A stretch of 36,957 nt of DNA from Verrucomicrobiota bacterium (GTDB taxonomy: Bacteria > Verrucomicrobiota > Verrucomicrobiia > Limisphaerales > Fontisphaeraceae), in NCBI GenBank assembly GCA_037139415.1, contig JBAXGN010000064.1, forward strand, positions 1-36,957. The letters are read 5' to 3'. The notes below the pieces were generated by a model. That model was not told the DNA's origin, ran no database searches, and worked only from the letters and a program-made list of their open reading frames with translations. Shown piece by piece: positions 1 to 11,098 of the stretch. The first letter of the stretch is position 1; every line of letters starts with the position of its first letter. The position numbers were made by a program, and so were the translations under genes.

Positions 1-60
1 AAAACAACAAAAACAAAACAAAAAAACATTTACACAATTATATTTACAAAACCATAAACG

Positions 61-168
61 CACGTGTATTTCGGAAAAGCGCACGTGCTTATGACACAAA
101 CGCATGTGTTTTTGGCAAAAGCACACGTGTATTTGGCAAAAGCACACGTGTTTTCGAAAAAACAAGTG
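61..168. repeat. 21-bp periodic CACGTG array
   Basis: Palindromic hexamers lie at 61, 82, 103 (CATGTG), 124 and 145, exactly 21 bp apart. A decayed copy (CAAGTG) sits at 163. Each is followed by a spacer close to tatttggcaaaagca. The spacing of two helical turns would put every palindrome on the same DNA face. No gene overlaps it. A protein-binding array or a simple tandem repeat are both possible. Confidence 0.75.
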
Positions 169-233
169 CCGGTTTGGCTGGGTTCCACATGGGTTAAAAG
201 CTAAACCAAAGGTACTTACGCAAGAAAACGCCA

Positions 234-258
234 AAAACAGGATTTTTCAGCCTGTTTT
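234..258. terminator. 8-bp stem hairpin, terminator-like
   Basis: aaaacagg (234-241) and cctgtttt (251-258) form a perfect 8-bp stem around a 9-nt loop. A-rich sequence on one side and T-rich on the other make it read like a bidirectional intrinsic terminator. No gene is seen on the left within the window, so the role is inferred from shape only. Confidence 0.35.
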
Positions 259-364
259 ACTTTAAAAGCGGGCGTTAAAGTGAATTCTGGCACCCCGCCA
301 AGGTCAGTTGGGTTTATGGGATGCCTTTCCGAAGGTCATACCCCGATCCTCGCATAGACCGCAC

Positions 365-949
365 CGGGCTGAAAGCCCGTGATGTGATAGCTTGGGGTGA
401 AGCCCCAAGGAAACGATGAACCACCTGATTGCCACCGCCCTGAAAGGGAGGGATATATAATTCCATGATTGACGCCCGCAACGGTGGTGCCGCCCTTACA
501 GGGCGGGGCGGTTTGCGGGGAACTCATTCCCGGGCCTTCAGCCCGGGCTATCACAGGACGAGCCTTCGGCCCTTTGTTGCCATCCTCACCCGCGGATTAC
601 CGTTCTGGCATCCCCTTCAGGATGCATTGGATTTATTGGACGGCTTTCCGGAGGTCATGCCCCGTTCCCCTCATGACGCTCCGGCTAGCTATCTGTCATC
701 CCGTTCGGGATGTATTCCAGAAAAATCCCAAGGGGATTTCGTCCTCCAGCCCAGGGTTGGACCGTTGGGGAAAAAGGGGAACAGGCCGTTGCTGGGTACC
801 CACCACCGTAGAGGGTAAACCCTGTAAGGGTTTCGGCTCTTGGTGTCCCCGGCGTCCGTGGCCACAACCCATGCCGGTCCGGTCGCGAGGGGCATGGGGC
901 GAGACCACCGGAAACGTGGAAAAAGACGAATGCACCCCGGAATGGGTGC
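365..949. repeat. Cluster of REP-like short hairpins
   Basis: At least nine short palindromes lie in under 600 bp, most with 3-6 nt loops: 365-379, 391-409, 438-448, 491-505, 529-547, 608-625, 697-712, 817-833 and 932-949. Many share the pattern stem-CT-GAA-AG-stem or a TTCA loop, for example cgggctgaaagcccg. This resembles intergenic REP/MITE-like mosaics common in Planctomycetes and Verrucomicrobia, a resemblance recalled rather than searched. Open frames across the tract have odd composition and no recognisable protein, so I see no gene in 1-1040. Confidence 0.7.
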
Positions 950-1040
950 CAGAGAGGTTGAGGCAAGGCCGTTCGTTATGCCAATCGTTCACAGTTTGCG
1001 AATACGCTACGAGCTTCGCATGCATGTGATAGCCTGCTCT

Positions 1041-1613
1041 TTAGTTTGCAATCCAAAACCATTTATCTCGCAGTTTTTTCCTCTTCGGCCAAATTTCGTC
1101 CGCACGTGACCCCGGCTTGATTTCACCAGAGGACGAATACAGGTAACCCCAATGCCTGACAGGAAAACTCCCGCCAACGAAAAAGGTAACAGTTAGCACC
1201 CCATTAGTTCCCTTCTCAGCCCATGTCGCAGAAGCCAACTCGGCCTCAGCGGGGAGCAGGTTCAACCGCATTGGCTCGGTCTGAACGGCAATATCTCCCG
1301 CCTCGATGCGTTGGATAATTGTTGCATAACGCGGTGCTACTCGCTCAAATCCGGCAACTAAAAGGCGAGGCGTAATGATCCCGTTGAGGAACTCCGCTGT
1401 TAAACATATTGCCAACGGAATGAACGACCAGAACCGAAAACGACGCCACCGCACGAACGCCCATACGAAACTCGTAATCAAAGCTGCTGCGTAAGCTATG
1501 TTCGCCGGAATCGTTAAGAGCAATAGCGGGTTTGAATGCGACCAGGCACACACAGCCGTGCAGATAAGCCATACCCCACAGACAAAAGAGACTATTGCAA
1601 CGACAAGTCGCAT
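1041..1613 (-). CDS. Membrane protein of unknown function
   Basis: The 190-residue product has three hydrophobic segments at about residues 4-26, 31-55 and 60-80, followed by a soluble C-terminal half of about 110 residues that probably lies on one side of the cytoplasmic membrane. A basic WRRFRFW stretch separates segments two and three. The C-terminal part has alternating hydrophobic residues suggestive of a beta-rich domain (for example GVLTVTFFVGGSF). I recognise no family. It lies downstream of the pseudopilin gene on the same strand, about 120 bp away, so co-transcription is possible but not shown. No clear Shine-Dalgarno sequence precedes the ATG. The frame is open over its full length and has ordinary amino-acid composition. 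Confidence 0.65.
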   Translation of the reverse strand: MRLVVAIVSFVCGVWLICTAVCAWSHSNPLLLLTIPANIAYAAALITSFVWAFVRWRRFRFWSFIPLAICLTAEFLNGIITPRLLVAGFERVAPRYATIIQRIEAGDIAVQTEPMRLNLLPAEAELASATWAEKGTNGVLTVTFFVGGSFPVRHWGYLYSSSGEIKPGSRADEIWPKRKKLRDKWFWIAN

Positions 1614-1735
1614 ACACAGGCTAACAACATTCTTGAACGCCCTTCCCGTTCATTATTTCCGGTGGCCAGTTATTTATCATGGCACCGACCTTCCCTAAAA
1701 AGTCCCCTCTGGTCAATTGGAAAACCTTGATCTTC

Positions 1736-2458
1736 CTATTCCGGGCCTTGCTTGCCGGGCTTGAGTCCGCAGTTGGTAAAATTGCTATCCTGGACTGCGT
1801 AGTGACTATCGTTCGTGGAGAGGTATTTCTTAAGTTGGGCCTGGTTGAGTTGCACCGCGTGGCCATCCGCCATGACCATGTTGCCGGCGTTGACGTGAAT
1901 GGTGTTCGTCCAAGTGGCAGTTTGTCCCAAGGTGGTCGTGGCTGGGAAAGGTAATCCCGGTTCCTGAACGTTTCCGCAAGCCCCGGCAGGTGCGGTAACG
2001 TTGCGGTCTCCGGCCACAAAGGCTTCGGGTTCGCGATCGTCTGCCTCGGTTCCGATGAGATAACTGATGGCATTGTTGCCCATGGCTGCATTGAACAATC
2101 CGCTGGTGCCGGTGGACCAGTCCGTGGCCTGCTTGCGGGCGGTGTCGCTGGGACAATATAATACTTTTGGCGTGGCCAGTAAATTTGAGAAGGCGGCAAA
2201 ATGCACATAAGCGTCTGGGTTTCCCCGGGTGCCGCCGTTGGCGACCGGCGTGTTCCAAGGGAAAAGGTGTCCGCCGTTATCCTCAGTCCACATCTTGGCG
2301 GCCAGTCCGATTTGCTTGAGGTTGCTAATGCAGGCAATTCGCTGGGCTTTGGCCTTGGCTTTGGCCAGGGCTGGCAACAAAAGTCCGGCCAGGATGGCGA
2401 TGATGGCGATAACCACCAGTAACTCGATCAACGTAAAGGCCGAAGCGTGCTTTTTCAT
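1736..2458 (-). CDS. Type II-like pseudopilin with H-X9-DG motif
   Basis: The 240-residue product begins with a short basic leader and the class III cleavage/methylation motif [19 protein letters not shown]. Prepilin peptidase should cut before the Phe (residue 8), leaving an N-terminal hydrophobic helix of about 20 residues. A basic alanine-rich helix ([20 protein letters not shown]) follows, then a beta-rich domain. Near the C-terminus, [12 protein letters not shown] matches the prepilin-associated H-X9-DG motif typical of Planctomycetes, Verrucomicrobia and Lentisphaerae. These genomes carry many such proteins, and their individual roles (surface filaments or secretion-associated pseudopili) are mostly unknown. 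It is transcribed away from the giant lyase gene at 2615, with which it shares a 156-bp intergenic region. Confidence 0.9.
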
Positions 2459-2570
2459 AAGCCGGACAATTCTGTTTCAGTTCTAATGAAAGTTACTGAT
2501 AAGCACCGACCATTTCAACCCGTATTTACGAATTATTTTCTCGGTGAAAAACGGTGCTACGGATTGGAAT

Positions 2571-2598
2571 TTGATTCGCAAGGAAGCCCATTTATGAT
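2571..2598 (+). promoter_or_regulatory. Sigma70-like promoter of the giant lyase gene
   Basis: TTGATT (2571-2576) and TATGAT (2593-2598) are separated by 16 bp and match the -35/-10 consensus at 4/6 and 5/6 positions. Transcription would start near 2605, leaving a leader of about 10 nt before the ATG at 2615. No Shine-Dalgarno sequence fits in that leader. Confidence 0.4.
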
Positions 2599-2614
2599 AT
2601 GGTTCATTTGAAGC

Positions 2615-5600
2615 ATGAAGTTGTTCAGCTTGATGATGCGGATGCATGTACTGATCTTCGCTACCGGATGGGTTTTAGGGCCCGTGTGGCAAGGGCAGGG
2701 CGCTGGCACTGGTTTGAATGGCGAATACTTCGGCAGCAACAATTTCACCACGCTCAAATTCACCCGCACGGATGCCACGGTCAACTTCGATTGGGGCACG
2801 AATACGCCGGGCAGCGGGGTGGGGGCGGACAACTTCTCGGTGCGGTGGTCCGGCCAGATCGAGCCGCGTTTCACGGAGACGTACACCTTTTACGTCACGG
2901 CGGATGACGGGGCGCGGCTTTGGGTGAATGACCGGATGATCCTGGGGCGCACCGTTTATTCCTCCTCCGCACTGGAAGTGTCGGGGAAAATCGCGCTCAA
3001 AGCCGGCGAGCATTATAATATTGTCCTGGAATATAATGAGAGCACGGGCCAGGCAAAGGTGCGACTCGGCTGGTCAAGTCCCAGTCAGGCCAAGGAGATT
3101 ATTCCGCAAAGCCAGCTCTATCCCACGGTCGCCGTGCCGGAACGTGGTTCGCTGCTCGTGGAGCATTGGCTGGGGCTGCCCGGCACCAATCTTTCCGCGC
3201 TCACGGCGGACACGAATTACCCGGCCAAGCCGGATATGCGCGAGTTTATCACCAGCTTCGAGTGTCTCCAGCCCAATTGGGCGGATAGTTACGGCACGCG
3301 TGTCACCGGCTATATCATGCCATCGGTGAGCGGTAATTATGTGTTTACGGTGTCGGGCGATGATACGGTGGAGCTGCGCCTCAGCACGGATACCAACGCG
3401 GCGAACAAGCGGCTCATTGCCTCGGTGCCGGCGGCGACGGGTTTCCGGCAGTTCACGAACTTTTCCAGCCAGGTCTCCACTTCGATCACGCTGGTTGCGC
3501 TGCAAAAATATTATGTCGAGTTGCTCCACAAGGAAGATACGAACAGTGATCACTTTTCCGTCGCATGGCAGCCGCCCGGCGCCACGAATTTCACGGTGAT
3601 TCCCGGTGATGTCCTGATCCCTGCCGGCTTGCACACCACGTTGCCCACGCAGGCGAATATCTTCAACACGCTGGTGCCGGTGCATCCGCGGCTCCTGGCT
3701 TCGCCGGAGAAGTTCGAGTGGCTGCGGCAGGCCATCGCGTCAAATTCCAATACGCAGATCACCGCGTGGTGGAAAACCCTGAGCAATTCTGCCGCCGGCA
3801 TTCTCACCAGTCCGATCAATGTTTATACGCAGGATAATCGCGGCACGATTCTCAATGTCAGCCGCAGCGTGCTGGACCGGATGCAAAAGCTTGGCCTGGT
3901 CTGGCAGATCACCGGCGATACGAATTTCTCCGAGCGCGCCTGGGCCGAACTGGCGGCGGTCGCGGCGTATCCTGATTGGCACCCCGCGCACTACCTCGAT
4001 ACCGCCGAGATGACGCACGCCTTCGCCATTGGCTACGATTGGATGTATAATTATTGGTCGCAATCCCGCCGCGACACCATCCGTAATGCGATCATCACGA
4101 ATGGGCTGAACCAGAGCCTGAACATTTACACCAATATGAACGATTGGTCGGCCTCGACCGCGAACAATTGGAACCTGGTGTGCAATGGCGGCATGATTAT
4201 GGGCGCGCTGGCGGTGGGGACGGAGAACGAGTCGCTGGCCGAATATATCGTCCTGCGCGCTGTCACGTCGGCTACCGCGGTCATGAAACATTATACGGCG
4301 GACAACGGCGGATGGTACGAGGGGCCCGGTTATTGGGACTATACCACCGACTATAACACGCGCCTGATGGCGGCCTTGGAGTCCGCTCTGGGCACCGACT
4401 TCGGCCTGAGCGATACGAAAACCGCATGGGAGACAGGACTCTTTGCCATGGGCATGGTGGGGCCAAACAAACTTTGCTTCAACTTCGCCGATGCCGGCGC
4501 CGGTAATATGGCTGGACCGCAGCTCTTCTGGGTCTCCCGCCGCTATAATCGGCCCGAGATCGCTTGGTATCAGCGCACCAACGCCAGTCCGGAGGTGCTG
4601 GACTTGCTGTGGTATGATGCGCGCGGCAGTAACCAGGTTAGCAGCGGTATCGCCACGGATTTTCATTATCGCGGCCCCACCGGCACGACTTCATTCTCTC
4701 CCGCCGATGCCGTGACGCTGCGGACGCGATGGTCAGACCCGGATGCGACGTTTGTTGGCTTCAAGTCCGGTGAGATTGGCGCAAGCCATGGGCATTTGGA
4801 CGGCGGCTCGTTTGTGCTCGATGCGTTGGGACGACGCTGGGCGCACGATATGGGGGGCGACGACTATGCATTGCCCGGCTACTTCAGCATCCCGCAGCGC
4901 TGGACCTATTACCGGCTTCGCGCCGAAGGCCACAACACGCTCGTCATCAATCCCGATGCCAATGCGGACCAGAACACTGGTGCCAAACCGCCGGTGATCC
5001 TGTTTGAAACCGAACCAAACCCGGAGCGTAGCGCCTTGGTCGCTGATCTCACCAGCGCCTATGACATCACGCGTGTCTGGCGCGGTATTCAACTTTTCAA
5101 CCAGCGCCGCTGGGTGCTGGTGCAGGATGAACTGCAAGCCACCAATGCCACGGTGTGGTGGTTCATGCATATCCAGACCAACGAGGCTCCGCAGCTTGAT
5201 CTCGACGGTTCTGCCGCCATGCTCACGCAAGGCACCGACCGGTTGTGGGTGAAAATCCTTTCCGGTGGTGGCACCTTTGTTTTGAGTAACGCCGTGCCGC
5301 TGCCCACTTCGCCCCAATTGACCAACCAGAACGCCAATGCGACCATGCAAAAGCTGGCCATCAAGCTAACCGGCGTCACGAACACCACGCTGGCGGTGCT
5401 GATGGTGCCGTTGAATCCGGGGGATAATCCGCCCACTCAATTGCCAACGCTGACCCCGCTGACCAACTGGGGTGCCATCAATCAGTTTGCGCCCTTGGTC
5501 AACGCGACGAACGTGAAAGCGGGACCGGCTGGTTTTGTGGATGTGGACCTGCTCACGCTGGCCACCGATGCCCAAACGGCGTCCAGTAATTTGTTGTTCA

Positions 5601-8600
5601 CCGTCAGTGGCACCAACGGCACGGCAGCGCTTTTTGCCGACGGTCACACCGTCCGCTTCACCCAGCCAAGCAATGCGCTTGCGCCATTGATCTTCACGTA
5701 CACCGCCACGGACCAGGTCGAGGATTCGCGCCTGTTATTCCACTATACCTTTGATCCGCCAGTTTCGGAGATGGCCACCAATGTGACTGATAACTCTGGC
5801 CACTACCGCGACGGCATGCTCGACAAACTGGGCACCGGCTCGTTTGCCTACGATACCAATGTGTCCAGCGTGCTCGCGCCATTTAGCGCGCAGTCGCTGC
5901 GCCTGACGGCCAGCGGCACGAACGCCGCGCGCCTCTCGCTGAGCCTGACCAACACGGATTACAACTTGAGCGATGCGGATTGGACCTTCACCACCTGGTT
6001 CCGCCGGGCTTCCACGAATACGGATGACTTTCTCTTCTACATCGGTGCCGGGGACGGTTACGGGGGCACCGGCGATGAGTTGCAGCTTTATTGTCCGGCA
6101 AACCAGTCCACCCTTGGTCTGGGCCACTGGAATGCTACCAACGGCCAGAATGTGGGCATCACTTCCACCAATACCGTCAACCTTGGGGAGTGGCATCACG
6201 CCGCCGTGGTCTTCAACCGTACCGCCACCAGCAATGGCACGATTCGCCTTTACCTCGATGGCGCGCAGGCGGGCAGTGTGACCAACCTGCCCGCGGCATT
6301 CGCGCAAAGCGCGCCGCTGCGGTTCGGCGGCCATTATGCCACAAACTATGCCGTGGACCGCTGGCTCGATGGTAATCTTGACGACGTGGCGTTGTTCGGT
6401 GCCGCGCTCTCCGCCACGGATATTGCGAAACTCGCTTCGGGTACGGTTGCCCAGTTCGGTGGGCGGACCTCGACCGGCTTGGTCACGGTGTTGCCGTGGA
6501 CGCTGCCGTTCGGGTGGCTGAATCAGGACATCGGGAGCGTTGGTGTGGCGGGAAACGCGGACTATTTTACCAACACCTTTGTGGTTACCGGTTCCGGCGC
6601 GGACATCTATAACAGTGCGGACGCCTTCCAGTTTGTCTTCCAGCAGCGTGCGGGTGATGGAGCGATCACCGCGCGCGTCCTCAGTCAGGATCCCACCGAC
6701 CCGTGGGCCAAAGCTGGCGTGATGATTCGTGAGACTCTGGATGCCGGTGCCCGGAACGCCTGCACCGTGGTGACACCGAGTAATGGCATCGCCTTCCAGC
6801 GCCGGGTCATTACCAATGGTACAAGCGCTACGACGAGCGGTCCCCGGGTCACGGCGCCTTACTGGGTGCGCATGGCTCGCAGCGGCACCAACCTGATTGG
6901 TTCCGCTTCCGCCGATGCGACCAATTGGACGCAAGTCACCAGTGTGGCGATCACCAATCTGGCCGATCCGGTATATTGGGGATTGGCGGTCTCGGCTCAT
7001 AACATAACCAAGACTTGTACTGCGCTGTTTGACAACGTCACGCTCAACGCCACGCCCGTGTTTCCTTCGCTAGCTGATGTTACCATGCCACCGGGAGGCT
7101 CATTGATAATCACGAATACTGCGACTGATTCAGACCTGCCGCTGCAAACGCTCAGTTATAGTTTGCTCACTCCGCCGGTTGGCGCGAGCATTGATCCGCT
7201 GACCGGGGTGATCAACTGGACGCCCTTGCAATCCGGCACCTTCAAGATCACCACCAAAGTCACCGATAACGGCGTTCCGGCGTTGAGCGCCACCAATAGT
7301 TTTAATGTCACCGTGAACCCTTTTACGAACACCACCATCTACTTCTGGGATACTTCGGCGAGTACCGGTTTGCAGGCGGGCAGTGGCACTTGGGATACCG
7401 CCATCTCGGCGTGGTCGGCCACACCTGCTGGTTCCAACCCGCTCCTCGCCTGGCCTGTGGGCGGAGGCGGCGCTGTGTTTGCCGGTGCGAATGGCAGTTA
7501 CCTGATTGCTACGGCGAGCGGCTTGACGGTGGATAGCCTCATTTTCAGCAATGCGGGTTATTCCGTCACGGGTAGCGCGCTGAACCATTTCTATACGCCG
7601 CTATCCATTCGCACCGAGGCGGATGCAACCATCAACGTGCCACTGGCGGGCGGTTATGGTTTGGTCAAGGACGGTGCGGGTAAACTTGTACTGGGAGGGG
7701 CCAGCACGTTCGCGGGAAATGCCACGATCAATGCCGGTACGCTGCAATGGACCACGGATAACGCGCTGCCCGCCACTGCCGCCGTTACCATTGGCAGCAC
7801 GAACGGCACCGCTGGCAATCTCGATCTGAATGGCCATGGCCAGACCATCAGTGGTCTCGCTTTCAAGTCCATCACCACCAACTATGACACCGTCAAAATC
7901 CTTGGCGGAAACACACTCACTGTCAGCAATATCGCCGCTGGCATCGCCTTCGGGGTGGGTAACTACGGGAACACGATTGGTGGGATTACCGCAACGACGC
8001 GCGTTGCCTTCGCGGGCGGTGGATCGCTCATCATCAACGCTCCGAGTGGCGCGTTCTCCGTTGAGCCAAGTGGCACGAATGCCACGGGTAACGCGCTGGC
8101 TGTTCTTGATCTGTCGGGTTTATCCAACTTCACCGCCAACGTGAGCAACTGGACGGCAGCGGTCATCGGCGGAAATCCTAACAATGTATCGGTGCAATTC
8201 ACTCTCACCTTGGCTACCAACAACACTATTACCGCGACCAACATCGTCCTTGGTTCCTCCGGCATGGGTAACAGTTCCGCTGGCGGTAATACGGTCAACC
8301 TTGGACGGAGTAACACGTTTAATGCCAACAATATTGTGGTCATGGGTGGGCGCCAGCTCGGTGCAATGCTCTTCCAGGCCGGTTCCAGTTCCAATCTTAC
8401 CATTCGCGGTGTTGCTGGCGGCTCCAGCCGCGCGAATTTGTATGCTGGTGACCAAAGTAACCTTTCTGGACTCGGAGGCGGTGGCGGTTCCAGCGTTAGC
8501 ACCAGCACGCTCAATTTCAGCGGCGCAACCGTGGACGTCCGCTTCAATCAGTTGACCCTTGGTATTGGCGGCTCTTCTGCGGGTGGGTATGGAACGGCTG

Positions 8601-10339
8601 GCGGCACCTTTATTTTCAGCGGCAGCAACAGCATTGTGGATGTCAATAACGTCATTCTTGGCTATGCGATGAAGAACAGCGCTTGGGGGAGCAGCAACAG
8701 CAACGCGGTCACTCACACCGGCACCTTGATAATGAACGCCGGCACGCTCATCGTGAACTCTAATTTCTTCCTCGGGTACAGTACTGATGATAACCTTGGT
8801 ACCACCCAGCACGTCACCGGTGTTTTTACCCTTAATGGCGGCATTGCCATGGTTACCTCCAACATTTTCCTCGGCTATGCCACCAATACTGCCGGTACCA
8901 ATACTGGAATCCTCAACCTCTCCAACGGCACTCTCAATGTCAGCGCCGACATCCTTTCCGCCAGCGCCAACGCGACCGGCATTGTCAACCTTGTTGGCGC
9001 CACGCTGAACATGAACGGCAACGACCTGGGCTCGGCCTCGAAATTCATCAACCTCGTCGCTGGCAGCGGCACGCTTCAAAGTGTGGGCGAGATTAATGCC
9101 GGTGCCACGCCGCTAGTGAAAACCAGCACAGGCACGCTCATTCTATCCAATGCCAACAACCATACCGGTGGTACGATTCTGGGAGGGGGAACTCTGGTGC
9201 TGGCAGGCAGCCTGAACAGCAGCCTCACAGCCACCAACGGCCTCCTCACCGGCGGCGGCATGATCAATGGCAACCTGACGCTCAACGCCGGCACGACGAA
9301 TCGCGTGAATATCAACGGTTTCATTCCAAACAACGGTTATGACCAACTGGTCGTCACGGGTGCAGTCAGCACGGTCACTCTTGCCGGCGCGCTGAATATC
9401 GTCGCTGCCACCAATTTGCCGGATTACGTTAGTTTTACGATCATCAACAATGCTGGCACGCTTCCGGTGAACGGCACCTTTGCGGGGCTGCCGGAAGGCG
9501 CCATTTTCTCCGCCTCCGGCTATTGGTGGCGGATCAACTACGCTTCCGGTGATGGCAATGATGTGGTGCTCTCGCTGCTCACGGCCACCAACCGTCTGCC
9601 GCTGGTATCGCTCGTCACGACTGGAGCGGTTTGGAAATATCTCGACAACGATTCCGACCAAGGGGCTGCTTGGCGCAGTAATACGTTCAACGATGCAGGT
9701 TGGAACTCCGGTCCCGCCAAATTGGGCTTTGGCGTTGGCAGCGAGGCCACGATTGTCAATGGCGGCCCGACAACCAATCGCTACGTCACCACGTATTTTC
9801 GGCGCGCTTTCTACGTTCCGGATGCCACGCTGGTGAAAACTCTGGGGGCGCGCCTCCTGCGCAACGACGGCGCGGTGGTGTATTTGAATGGCGGCGAAGT
9901 GTGGCGCGATGGATTGCCTGTCAGCACCAACATTACTTACCGGACCCTGGCCACCCAGACCATTCAAGGGACTAACCAAACCAACTACATTTCCACCACG
10001 CTTACGCCGTCAGTACTCATCACTGGTACAAATGTGGTGGCGGTGGAAGTTCACCAAGTTGCCACGAATAGCCCCGACCTCGGTTTTGATTTTGAACTCA
10101 CCACCTCAGTGGTTTTGGATAGGGTGCCAATGCTTGCCATCAGCCGGGCAGGGAGCGGCAACACCCTGACCATTCCCCTGTCGGCGGGCTTCCTCCAGCT
10201 TTACTCTGCCACCAATCTGGCCCCACCATATTATTGGATGCGGGTGACGAATTCCTCGGTTCTCACTAACGGTTCCTGGCAATTCACGCTGCCTTACACG
10301 TCCAGCTCCCGTCGCTTCCTCCGGCTGCAATCGCAGTGA
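2615..10339 (+). CDS. Giant exported heparinase II/III-like polysaccharide lyase
   Basis: This 2574-residue secreted protein has a signal peptide at about 1-30; starts at 2633 or 2636 are also possible. In order I see a PA14 domain (about 34-169), a second PA14-like domain (181-322) and a heparinase II/III-type alpha-toroid plus beta-sheet lyase (357-980). The lyase has NNWN at 517-520, HGH at 725-727 and EGHN with His773, consistent with the Asn/His set of that fold. After it come a LamG/concanavalin-like domain (1036-1274), a DUF1349-like sandwich (1296-1478), a putative Ig domain (1482-1569), a long tract of autotransporter-associated strand repeats (1572-2325), a galactose-binding-like domain (2329-2498) and a short C-terminal module ending FLRLQSQ. 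The substrate is probably a uronate polymer. No outer-membrane barrel follows the strand repeats, so it is not a classical autotransporter. Which polymer it cuts cannot be read from the sequence. Confidence 0.85.
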   Translation: MKLFSLMMRMHVLIFATGWVLGPVWQGQGAGTGLNGEYFGSNNFTTLKFTRTDATVNFDWGTNTPGSGVGADNFSVRWSGQIEPRFTETYTFYVTADDGARLWVNDRMILGRTVYSSSALEVSGKIALKAGEHYNIVLEYNESTGQAKVRLGWSSPSQAKEIIPQSQLYPTVAVPERGSLLVEHWLGLPGTNLSALTADTNYPAKPDMREFITSFECLQPNWADSYGTRVTGYIMPSVSGNYVFTVSGDDTVELRLSTDTNAANKRLIASVPAATGFRQFTNFSSQVSTSITLVALQKYYVELLHKEDTNSDHFSVAWQPPGATNFTVIPGDVLIPAGLHTTLPTQANIFNTLVPVHPRLLASPEKFEWLRQAIASNSNTQITAWWKTLSNSAAGILTSPINVYTQDNRGTILNVSRSVLDRMQKLGLVWQITGDTNFSERAWAELAAVAAYPDWHPAHYLDTAEMTHAFAIGYDWMYNYWSQSRRDTIRNAIITNGLNQSLNIYTNMNDWSASTANNWNLVCNGGMIMGALAVGTENESLAEYIVLRAVTSATAVMKHYTADNGGWYEGPGYWDYTTDYNTRLMAALESALGTDFGLSDTKTAWETGLFAMGMVGPNKLCFNFADAGAGNMAGPQLFWVSRRYNRPEIAWYQRTNASPEVLDLLWYDARGSNQVSSGIATDFHYRGPTGTTSFSPADAVTLRTRWSDPDATFVGFKSGEIGASHGHLDGGSFVLDALGRRWAHDMGGDDYALPGYFSIPQRWTYYRLRAEGHNTLVINPDANADQNTGAKPPVILFETEPNPERSALVADLTSAYDITRVWRGIQLFNQRRWVLVQDELQATNATVWWFMHIQTNEAPQLDLDGSAAMLTQGTDRLWVKILSGGGTFVLSNAVPLPTSPQLTNQNANATMQKLAIKLTGVTNTTLAVLMVPLNPGDNPPTQLPTLTPLTNWGAINQFAPLVNATNVKAGPAGFVDVDLLTLATDAQTASSNLLFTVSGTNGTAALFADGHTVRFTQPSNALAPLIFTYTATDQVEDSRLLFHYTFDPPVSEMATNVTDNSGHYRDGMLDKLGTGSFAYDTNVSSVLAPFSAQSLRLTASGTNAARLSLSLTNTDYNLSDADWTFTTWFRRASTNTDDFLFYIGAGDGYGGTGDELQLYCPANQSTLGLGHWNATNGQNVGITSTNTVNLGEWHHAAVVFNRTATSNGTIRLYLDGAQAGSVTNLPAAFAQSAPLRFGGHYATNYAVDRWLDGNLDDVALFGAALSATDIAKLASGTVAQFGGRTSTGLVTVLPWTLPFGWLNQDIGSVGVAGNADYFTNTFVVTGSGADIYNSADAFQFVFQQRAGDGAITARVLSQDPTDPWAKAGVMIRETLDAGARNACTVVTPSNGIAFQRRVITNGTSATTSGPRVTAPYWVRMARSGTNLIGSASADATNWTQVTSVAITNLADPVYWGLAVSAHNITKTCTALFDNVTLNATPVFPSLADVTMPPGGSLIITNTATDSDLPLQTLSYSLLTPPVGASIDPLTGVINWTPLQSGTFKITTKVTDNGVPALSATNSFNVTVNPFTNTTIYFWDTSASTGLQAGSGTWDTAISAWSATPAGSNPLLAWPVGGGGAVFAGANGSYLIATASGLTVDSLIFSNAGYSVTGSALNHFYTPLSIRTEADATINVPLAGGYGLVKDGAGKLVLGGASTFAGNATINAGTLQWTTDNALPATAAVTIGSTNGTAGNLDLNGHGQTISGLAFKSITTNYDTVKILGGNTLTVSNIAAGIAFGVGNYGNTIGGITATTRVAFAGGGSLIINAPSGAFSVEPSGTNATGNALAVLDLSGLSNFTANVSNWTAAVIGGNPNNVSVQFTLTLATNNTITATNIVLGSSGMGNSSAGGNTVNLGRSNTFNANNIVVMGGRQLGAMLFQAGSSSNLTIRGVAGGSSRANLYAGDQSNLSGLGGGGGSSVSTSTLNFSGATVDVRFNQLTLGIGGSSAGGYGTAGGTFIFSGSNSIVDVNNVILGYAMKNSAWGSSNSNAVTHTGTLIMNAGTLIVNSNFFLGYSTDDNLGTTQHVTGVFTLNGGIAMVTSNIFLGYATNTAGTNTGILNLSNGTLNVSADILSASANATGIVNLVGATLNMNGNDLGSASKFINLVAGSGTLQSVGEINAGATPLVKTSTGTLILSNANNHTGGTILGGGTLVLAGSLNSSLTATNGLLTGGGMINGNLTLNAGTTNRVNINGFIPNNGYDQLVVTGAVSTVTLAGALNIVAATNLPDYVSFTIINNAGTLPVNGTFAGLPEGAIFSASGYWWRINYASGDGNDVVLSLLTATNRLPLVSLVTTGAVWKYLDNDSDQGAAWRSNTFNDAGWNSGPAKLGFGVGSEATIVNGGPTTNRYVTTYFRRAFYVPDATLVKTLGARLLRNDGAVVYLNGGEVWRDGLPVSTNITYRTLATQTIQGTNQTNYISTTLTPSVLITGTNVVAVEVHQVATNSPDLGFDFELTTSVVLDRVPMLAISRAGSGNTLTIPLSAGFLQLYSATNLAPPYYWMRVTNSSVLTNGSWQFTLPYTSSSRRFLRLQSQ

Positions 10340-10640: not shown

Positions 10641-10821
10641 CTCCTCGTTTCCATCCCGACGGCAGCTTTCCTCTATCTGACAGACAATTTTTGCCATGTT
10701 CCTTTCCCCCCATTTCCATTTCTGGTGTTTTCTGGTGCTCGCGAGTGCTTTTCAGTGCTTTGCTCACCCAATCGGATGACGTGACAGTCGCACCACCAAA
10801 ACTTTGAAGGTTCACTCACTT

Positions 10822-10834
10822 AAGAACGTCAAAA
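10822..10834 (+). promoter_or_regulatory. Shared leader motif AAGAACGTCAAAA (copy 1)
   Basis: This 13-bp sequence lies 23 nt before the ATG of a signal-peptide remnant at 10845. The identical 13-mer occurs at 26467-26479, 22 nt before the ATG of the PL6 lyase gene, and a shorter match (aagaacg, 12303-12309) precedes the GH-A gene. The shared position before signal-peptide starts suggests a common 5' leader or a recombination scar. Any function is inferred. Confidence 0.4.
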
Positions 10835-10844
10835 TTGCACAAAC

Positions 10845-11098
10845 ATGAACGTCGTCATACACATTACGCTTGTTGCCCTGCTGTTGGCTGGCGTTGCGTC
10901 CGTGCCACGCATGTATCGACGATGAACATCAAAGTGCAGAAGACCTCCGGTCAGATGGGCGTCGCCGTCGGCACCGACGCTTTCCTGTGCAAAAAACACC
11001 ATGCGCCCCGCGCGGCATCTACCAGCAGCACTTGGCGGAGTTGCAGGACATCGTATTCAATCGTGGCGAGCACGCCAACGACCTGAAACCAAAACCTT
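10845..11098 (+). pseudogene. Remnant of an exported protein: signal peptide plus frameshifted body
   Basis: An ATG at 10845 opens a 26-codon frame reading MNVVIHITLVALLLAGVASV and then PRMYRR before a stop at 10923. It looks like a complete signal peptide with no mature protein. The following 170 bp are open in two other frames: MNIKVQKTSGQMGVAVG starting at 10922, overlapping the stop, and later YQQHLAELQDIVFNRGEHA ending at 11098. Together they suggest a small exported protein broken by frameshifts or deletions, but I cannot identify a parent family, so this is a tentative reconstruction. It lies immediately before the enolase-superfamily gene and has the same leader motif as the PL6 gene. 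Confidence 0.35.

Follow-up and report, generated by a model that had tools for sequence, protein, structure and literature searches.

Introduction

Plasmid iterons are tandem sites placed about two turns of DNA apart, on the same helix face, and their sequence is specific to each replicon. The sopC site of the F plasmid consists of tandem 43-bp repeats, each with a dyad of ~16 bp, at one locus with a cognate protein, SopB. The STRR of cyanobacteria are intergenic tandem repeats of heptamers, with a 7-bp unit, and REPs are adjoined by insertion elements. Here we describe arrays with a 21-bp period, starting from a window of 36,957 bases (the whole stretch of DNA that was analysed), which is contig C64 of a 7.9-Mb genome in 378 contigs. 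The arrays resemble sopC in that regularly spaced tandem repeats each carry a dyad; however, the period is 21 bp instead of 43 bp and the arrays are found at many loci instead of one. They resemble STRR in being short-period intergenic tandems, and 21 is 3 x 7, but the unit is not 7 bp.

Results

An array of five units in the window

A preliminary description of this DNA reported five CACGTG or CATGTG palindromes at exact 21-bp spacing, and we found them just as described: units start at 61, 82, 103, 124 and 145, with CACGTG at four of these and CATGTG at 103, and Tandem Repeats Finder gives a period of 21 with 0% indels. CACGTG occurs 10 times in the window as compared to ~11 expected from composition, and 4 of the 10 fall inside one 90-bp stretch in steps of exactly 21 bp. 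Over positions 33-190, three of the six frames are open and there are no gene calls. The array and its surroundings are as follows.

1-54, + strand: end part of a multi-copy repeat element with 17 strong genome matches, including the window
61-165, no strand assigned: 21-bp array of five units (dyad p = 0.004)
166-208, + strand: stretch that joins array and module, covered by no genome match other than the C87 paralogue
209-367, + strand: window copy of the downstream module, which follows arrays of differing sequence
260-280, + strand: most conserved part of the module in a 12-copy alignment, a 21-bp imperfect palindrome, CTTTAA ... TTAAAG
110-590, + strand: segment paralogous to C87:10453-10935, with the same period and a different core
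604-712, + strand: a further, incomplete copy of the downstream part of the module

All 17 strong matches of the element at 1-54 are at contig ends, and no searched contig extends further into it. Because just 7 bp separate this contig-edge element from the first unit, the array may be incomplete on its left side. A 21-bp array lies within 300 bp of the element junction in 4 of 15 junctions examined (C58 and C75 were left out) as compared to 44 of 3000 background windows. Within the array, column agreement is 29/30 in the core and 59/75 in the spacer (Fisher p = 0.037); because a permutation test for any block of six columns conserved equally gives p = 0.23, the window array alone only weakly supports a core more conserved than its spacers.

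In an Rfam search of window positions 1-2600, we found solely a chance microRNA match at 94-175 and a sub-threshold match to Acido-Lenti-1 RNA at 529-573 (29.4 bits, gathering threshold 37, E = 4e-4), which lies within a stretch that recurs in the genome; L121:2400-4900 gave no Rfam match. Positions 2615-10339 hold a 2574-aa open reading frame whose first 500 residues include a PA14 domain.

The 21-bp period recurs across the genome

We read 1,606,475 bases for arrays, about one fifth of the genome, comprising the window, 13 stretches picked for matches and another 1,316,143 bases in 67 stretches picked by contig number, among them contigs that also had matches. With home-made gene calls, 80.5% of this DNA is coding and the noncoding part is 301 kb. 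Base identity in the noncoding part peaks at lags 21, 42, 63, 84, 105 and 126, and the peaks stand above a three-base background that probably comes from missed genes; 21 bp and its multiples are the top noncoding repeat period in the 1.6 Mb read. When we counted segments with at least 36/63 identity at a given lag, there were 29 at lag 21, 18 at lag 42, 15 at lag 63, 7 at lag 41, 6 at lag 14, 5 each at lags 10 and 62, 1 each at lags 18, 20 and 22, and 0 at lag 24. Five shuffles gave 0 segments at lags 20, 21, 22 and 42. When matches at lags 20-22, 41-43 and 62-64 were merged, 32 loci resulted; in most of them the unit sequence differs from that of the window array, and some are period-7 repeats or repeats of other kinds. 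Of the 32 loci, 19 lie in the 67 stretches, 12 of these with lag 21 itself, and by extrapolation from these stretches we estimate ~70-115 noncoding arrays in the whole genome. A separate repeat class is present at L098:11171-11382, a period-7 heptamer array of the GTAATCA/GTGATCA type.

Of 155 steps between motifs in 20 arrays, 123 measure 21 bp; the commonest remaining steps are 20 bp (9), 19 bp (7), 22 bp (7) and 41 bp (5), and in array C130 the steps alternate between 19 and 22 bp. The longest array has up to 16 units, and several arrays contain homogeneous runs. The period does not vary freely between arrays, as it would in simple minisatellites; lag 21 dominates.

Each 21 bp contains one motif of ~14-18 bp that is usually dyad-symmetric. 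Example units are GGAACACGTGTTCC, CCAAACCACGGTTTGG, GCATAACGCCTTATGC, ACAAAGGCCTTTGT, AATCCTAGGTCGGATT, GGACAAGACCTTGTCC and TTTGGGGGAGCCCCCAAA. Dyad symmetry is significant by column permutation (p < 0.05) in 14 of the 17 arrays that had three or more usable units each (combined Fisher 9e-18), where motif seeds were picked by eye and 3 of the 17 arrays are one family; a dyad test without phase correction or seeds is positive in 11 of 32 loci, two being period-7 arrays. The preliminary description had argued that the phasing exceeds what slippage of one sequence would leave, and this is borne out by arrays that have other units, mostly dyads, and the same 21 bp. The arms within units show no overall covariation (Stouffer Z = 0.32, 15 arrays): it is positive in L029 alone (p = 0.0035), and L054 shows the opposite. 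Arm mismatches comprise 112 G-T as compared to 91 A-C. The lack of covariation and the similar numbers of G-T and A-C fit recognition of duplex DNA, not hairpins, though passively inherited founder palindromes would look the same in one array.

Exact CACGTG-N15-CACGTG pairs are present in this genome on contigs C49, C64 and C80 only. With one mismatch allowed, we found 28 matches for CACGTG at 21 bp as compared to 12 with the reversed control, and three CACGTG at spacings of 15-27 occur 3 times as compared to 3 with the control.

Units are replaced at paralogous sites

The window copy at 110-590 and its closest paralogue, on contig C87, are 84% identical over 486 bp. The 21-bp period and the spacer CAAAAGCA are kept, and another palindrome stands in the C87 array where the window has CACGTG. 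CACGTG had been put forward as the recognised element, and an array for CACGTG-specific binding would keep its core in paralogous arrays; at C87 the period, spacer and surroundings are kept around a different palindrome. Variation of the period, or cores no better kept than spacers, had been named as the marks of an ordinary tandem repeat; we found that the period is not free and that the core is not kept between paralogous arrays. The earlier reading was half right: the geometry stands, and CACGTG as the conserved part does not. Beside the C87 array, L033:10977-11606 encodes a protein with an MmeI N-terminal domain.

At L414, L421 and L423, paralogous genes are each followed by an array and the module. 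L414 and L423 are 81% identical over 1040 bp, L414 and L421 84% over 645 bp, and L421 and L423 76% over 897 bp; the array of L414 is unlike those of L421 and L423, which resemble each other. The proteins at these loci are ~185-212 aa long and contain the stretch MARYNEA. These comparisons show that the unit sequence is swapped in place while the period and surroundings are retained.

A module lies downstream of arrays of differing sequence

The seven arrays first found to have a common downstream sequence led, through a genome search with it, to 41 matches. We fetched 30 module loci and retained 18 distinct copies under a core-holding rule, which left out L422 (array present) and L420/L424 (one place, no array). 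In the 420 bp upstream of the module, the best lag is 21 in 15 of 18 copies and its value is at least 0.6 in 13 of 18. Downstream of the module, the corresponding numbers are 2 of 18 and 1 of 18, and 48 of 3000 random noncoding windows have a lag-21 array. A second count took the 14 distinct copies with a match that begins within query bases 1-50: lag 21 reaches at least 0.6 in 10 of them, is weaker in 2 and is absent from 2. The 15 lag-21 upstream regions form seven BLAST clusters, and the 13 stronger ones form six, with the window and C87 as one (their link is alike). Despite these differing sequences, the arrays have a single orientation to the module, upstream of it.

The module was rejected as a conserved RNA structure: its fold has two stems in which 1 of 15 pairs is changed on both sides, i.e., almost no covariation. 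When 30 relatives were searched with window positions 1-420, none covered the module's core palindrome and 4 genomes matched, at bases 362-415 only. Taken together, the arrays have a two-turn geometry in common, in most cases with a dyad, and within this genome they also have the module in common; these data suggest that geometry, not letters, is what is kept.

Gene context of the arrays

Pfam matches were found for 17 of 20 flanking proteins. The 20 have no common theme except weak DUF4190-like proteins beside the C49 and C122 arrays, which are one family, and none has a transposase domain. In 20 proteins flanking arrays other than the window's, we found no replication (initiator) Pfam domain. 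The genome contains 8 matches to Y1_Tnp. None of them is on a contig with a listed array, and in the roughly one fifth of the genome covered for arrays no association with RAYT was seen. For 13 of 24 arrays the closest gene end is a 3′ end, and neighbours are convergent in 6 of the 17 cases with both neighbours present, so there is no clear bias to gene 3′ ends or convergent genes. At least one open frame is present at 27 of 32 loci and none at 5 (including L054:1353-1677 and L058), and, judged by eye, match rates by codon phase have no third-position pattern.

Arrays and CACGTG in other genomes

Three CACGTG at spacings of 15-27 are present in 12 of 387 genomes of the phylum as compared to 4 with the reversed control. 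Among the matches listed for the 387 genomes, a 21-bp tandem array is found in the window's genome only, and CACGTG as a phylum-wide conserved target was rejected; G262 and G293 each have, among the matches listed, a single 48-bp match whose spacers do not repeat. Other members of the phylum have a CACGTG element of another kind, close to CACGTGAGTCACGTTCCACGTGTCAACGTGGTCACGTG and with 16-bp spacing, at several loci in G258, G267, G190 and G100 and at one in G251 and G097. In two same-family relatives (small samples, 173 kb), we found only repeats that we judged coding from their open frames. G007, which is from another family of the same order, has nearly perfect 41-bp arrays with visible palindromes and no open frame at L086:979-1337 and 10694-11076.

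In viral contigs, three CACGTG at spacings of 15-27 occur in at least 120 stretches, with varied spacings. In the genome set scanned at 21 bp only, at least 118 stretches have three CACGTG at exactly 21 bp. Among the matches listed there are 80 loci, from Bacteroidota, Planctomycetota, Amycolatopsis, Hormoscilla, Acidobacteria and others; many of the Bacteroidota and Planctomycetota assemblies are, as we take it from isolate names, from termite guts. By eye, many of the 80 loci consist of a 16-bp palindrome plus 5 bp, and some are coding or chance, 12 being inside called genes. Of the others, 4 are between convergent, 9 between divergent and 22 between tandem genes, and 33 are at an edge. In the noncoding DNA of these loci and of 19 further stretches (47 kb, seed arrays excluded), lag 21 comes first (9), followed by 42 (6) and by 22 and 63 (3 each), with none at 20. 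In 34 genomes taken from the CACGTG scan and chosen for having matches, CACGTG-N15-CACGTG exceeds the reversed control in 32 (the control is 0 in 22) and the control is higher in 2; the counts are 34 and 5 in Amycolatopsis roodepoortensis and 50 and 0 in an Odoribacteraceae genome. When loci of the same genome were compared (10 groups), 9 groups share array sequence among the matches listed, and similarity is confined to the array in 6 of these and extends into the flanks in 3.

Discussion

Our preferred reading, to which we tentatively give a probability of roughly 45%, is that these are locally amplified, rapidly replaced dyad arrays, held as duplex DNA for their two-turn geometry. Units would be amplified and homogenised locally, by unequal exchange or slippage, and because of this each array would drift to a private sequence. 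As to function, we infer that an array would act in duplex form and would most likely offer a putative DNA-binding protein a row of cooperative sites; because it would work in this form, selection would retain the geometry alone, with one dyad per two turns, always on the same face of the helix. The putative protein would be dimeric or oligomeric and would tolerate, or co-evolve with, the sequence. Array and module together would be an extragenic element with a role comparable to that of REP/BIME clusters, and the fixed module may drive the rewriting of the arrays. Several points count against selected geometry. Units this diverse would call for either a number of proteins or a single sequence-tolerant one; the flanking proteins have no common theme beyond the weak DUF4190-like ones; the dyad test without phase correction or seeds is positive in only 11 of 32 loci; the arms covary in L029; the steps alternate in C130; three CACGTG at spacings of 15-27 do not exceed the control in this genome; the small samples of two same-family relatives showed only repeats judged coding; and the contrast between core and spacer in the window array is weak. 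It is a more doubtful proposition, if a conceivable one, that the arrays represent a widespread bacterial class with inherited and selected geometry and a private sequence rewritten in place beside a fixed module.

The main rival is a mutational ruler without selection, in which replication or repair preferentially duplicates 21-bp segments (two turns) at quasi-palindromes and turnover is neutral. Degenerate arrays that turn over at paralogous sites, homogeneous runs within several of them and their position beside ordinary genes with no clear bias are all consistent with it; however, the 21 bp persists in strongly diverged units, where neutral indels should build up, the arrays lie upstream of one module in a single orientation, and we know of no process that has a 21-bp ruler. 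We consider it rather unlikely. The fixed orientation of the module, its 41 matches and the differing array families on it would also suit a (formerly) mobile composite element, of which the array would be the variable, protein-binding end; arrays of transposase sites occur at Tn7-like ends. We regard this as improbable, given flanking proteins without transposase domains (0/20), similarity confined to the array in 6 of 9 same-genome comparisons in other genomes, among the matches listed, and arrays of up to 16 units.

The exact same-face spacing and the excess of CACGTG pairs over the reversed control in 32 of 34 genomes speak for the specific reading of the preliminary description, a protein dedicated to CACGTG or a replication origin of the iteron type, but those genomes were chosen for matches and the control is higher in 2, the C87 paralogue lacks CACGTG, few arrays in this genome have it and the 20 flanking proteins include no replication domain; such a protein or origin is very improbable. 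Even less probable is a role in RNA, in which arrays would be transcribed and each unit would form a small hairpin, for example to shield mRNA 3′ ends. The palindromic units and the arm covariation in L029 agree with hairpins; in contrast, 15 arrays together show no covariation, G-T is not clearly above A-C and a constant 21-nt spacing has no reason in RNA, and the lack of a clear bias to 3′ ends (13/24) or convergent genes (6/17) makes this explanation less likely. That the arrays encode seven-residue repeats of an unannotated protein is scarcely credible: 21 bp would make seven codons, and a frame is open at 27 of 32 loci, yet 5 loci have none, steps of 19, 20 and 22 bp break the frame and no third-position pattern was apparent by eye in the match rates by codon phase.

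If, as in our preferred reading, selection acts on geometry and not on sequence, ordinary searches by motif or homology would pass over such arrays; this could, if true, explain why we met no account of them in the literature searched, mostly material below full-text level and including PMC4060949 and PMC3733652. The arrays would allow a direct test for sequence-tolerant protein platforms, helically phased and located between bacterial genes, and would give a natural system in which to watch in-place rewriting.

The arrays are similar to CRISPR arrays in having regular repeats beside a conserved flank; in contrast to CRISPR, there are no identical repeats with unique spacers, and the spacers are degenerate copies of one another. 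They are iteron-like in their two-turn tandem spacing. Unlike plasmid iterons, they are present at tens of loci and have dyad units, there is no replication domain in the flanking proteins scanned, and no replication-initiator gene is adjacent among the proteins that flank arrays other than the window's. With REP/BIME (PMC3733652) they share being intergenic, palindromic, clustered and dispersed: the arrays are noncoding by home-made gene calls, and dyads are found in 14 of 17. In contrast to REP/BIME, there is no single consensus (seven BLAST clusters in 15 regions, with some units recurring at few loci), several unrelated units occur per genome in a strict 21-bp tandem period, and no RAYT gene is on the contigs for which arrays are listed, from about one fifth of the genome. 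As in REPs, a multi-copy element adjoins the arrays above background (4/15 vs 44/3000).
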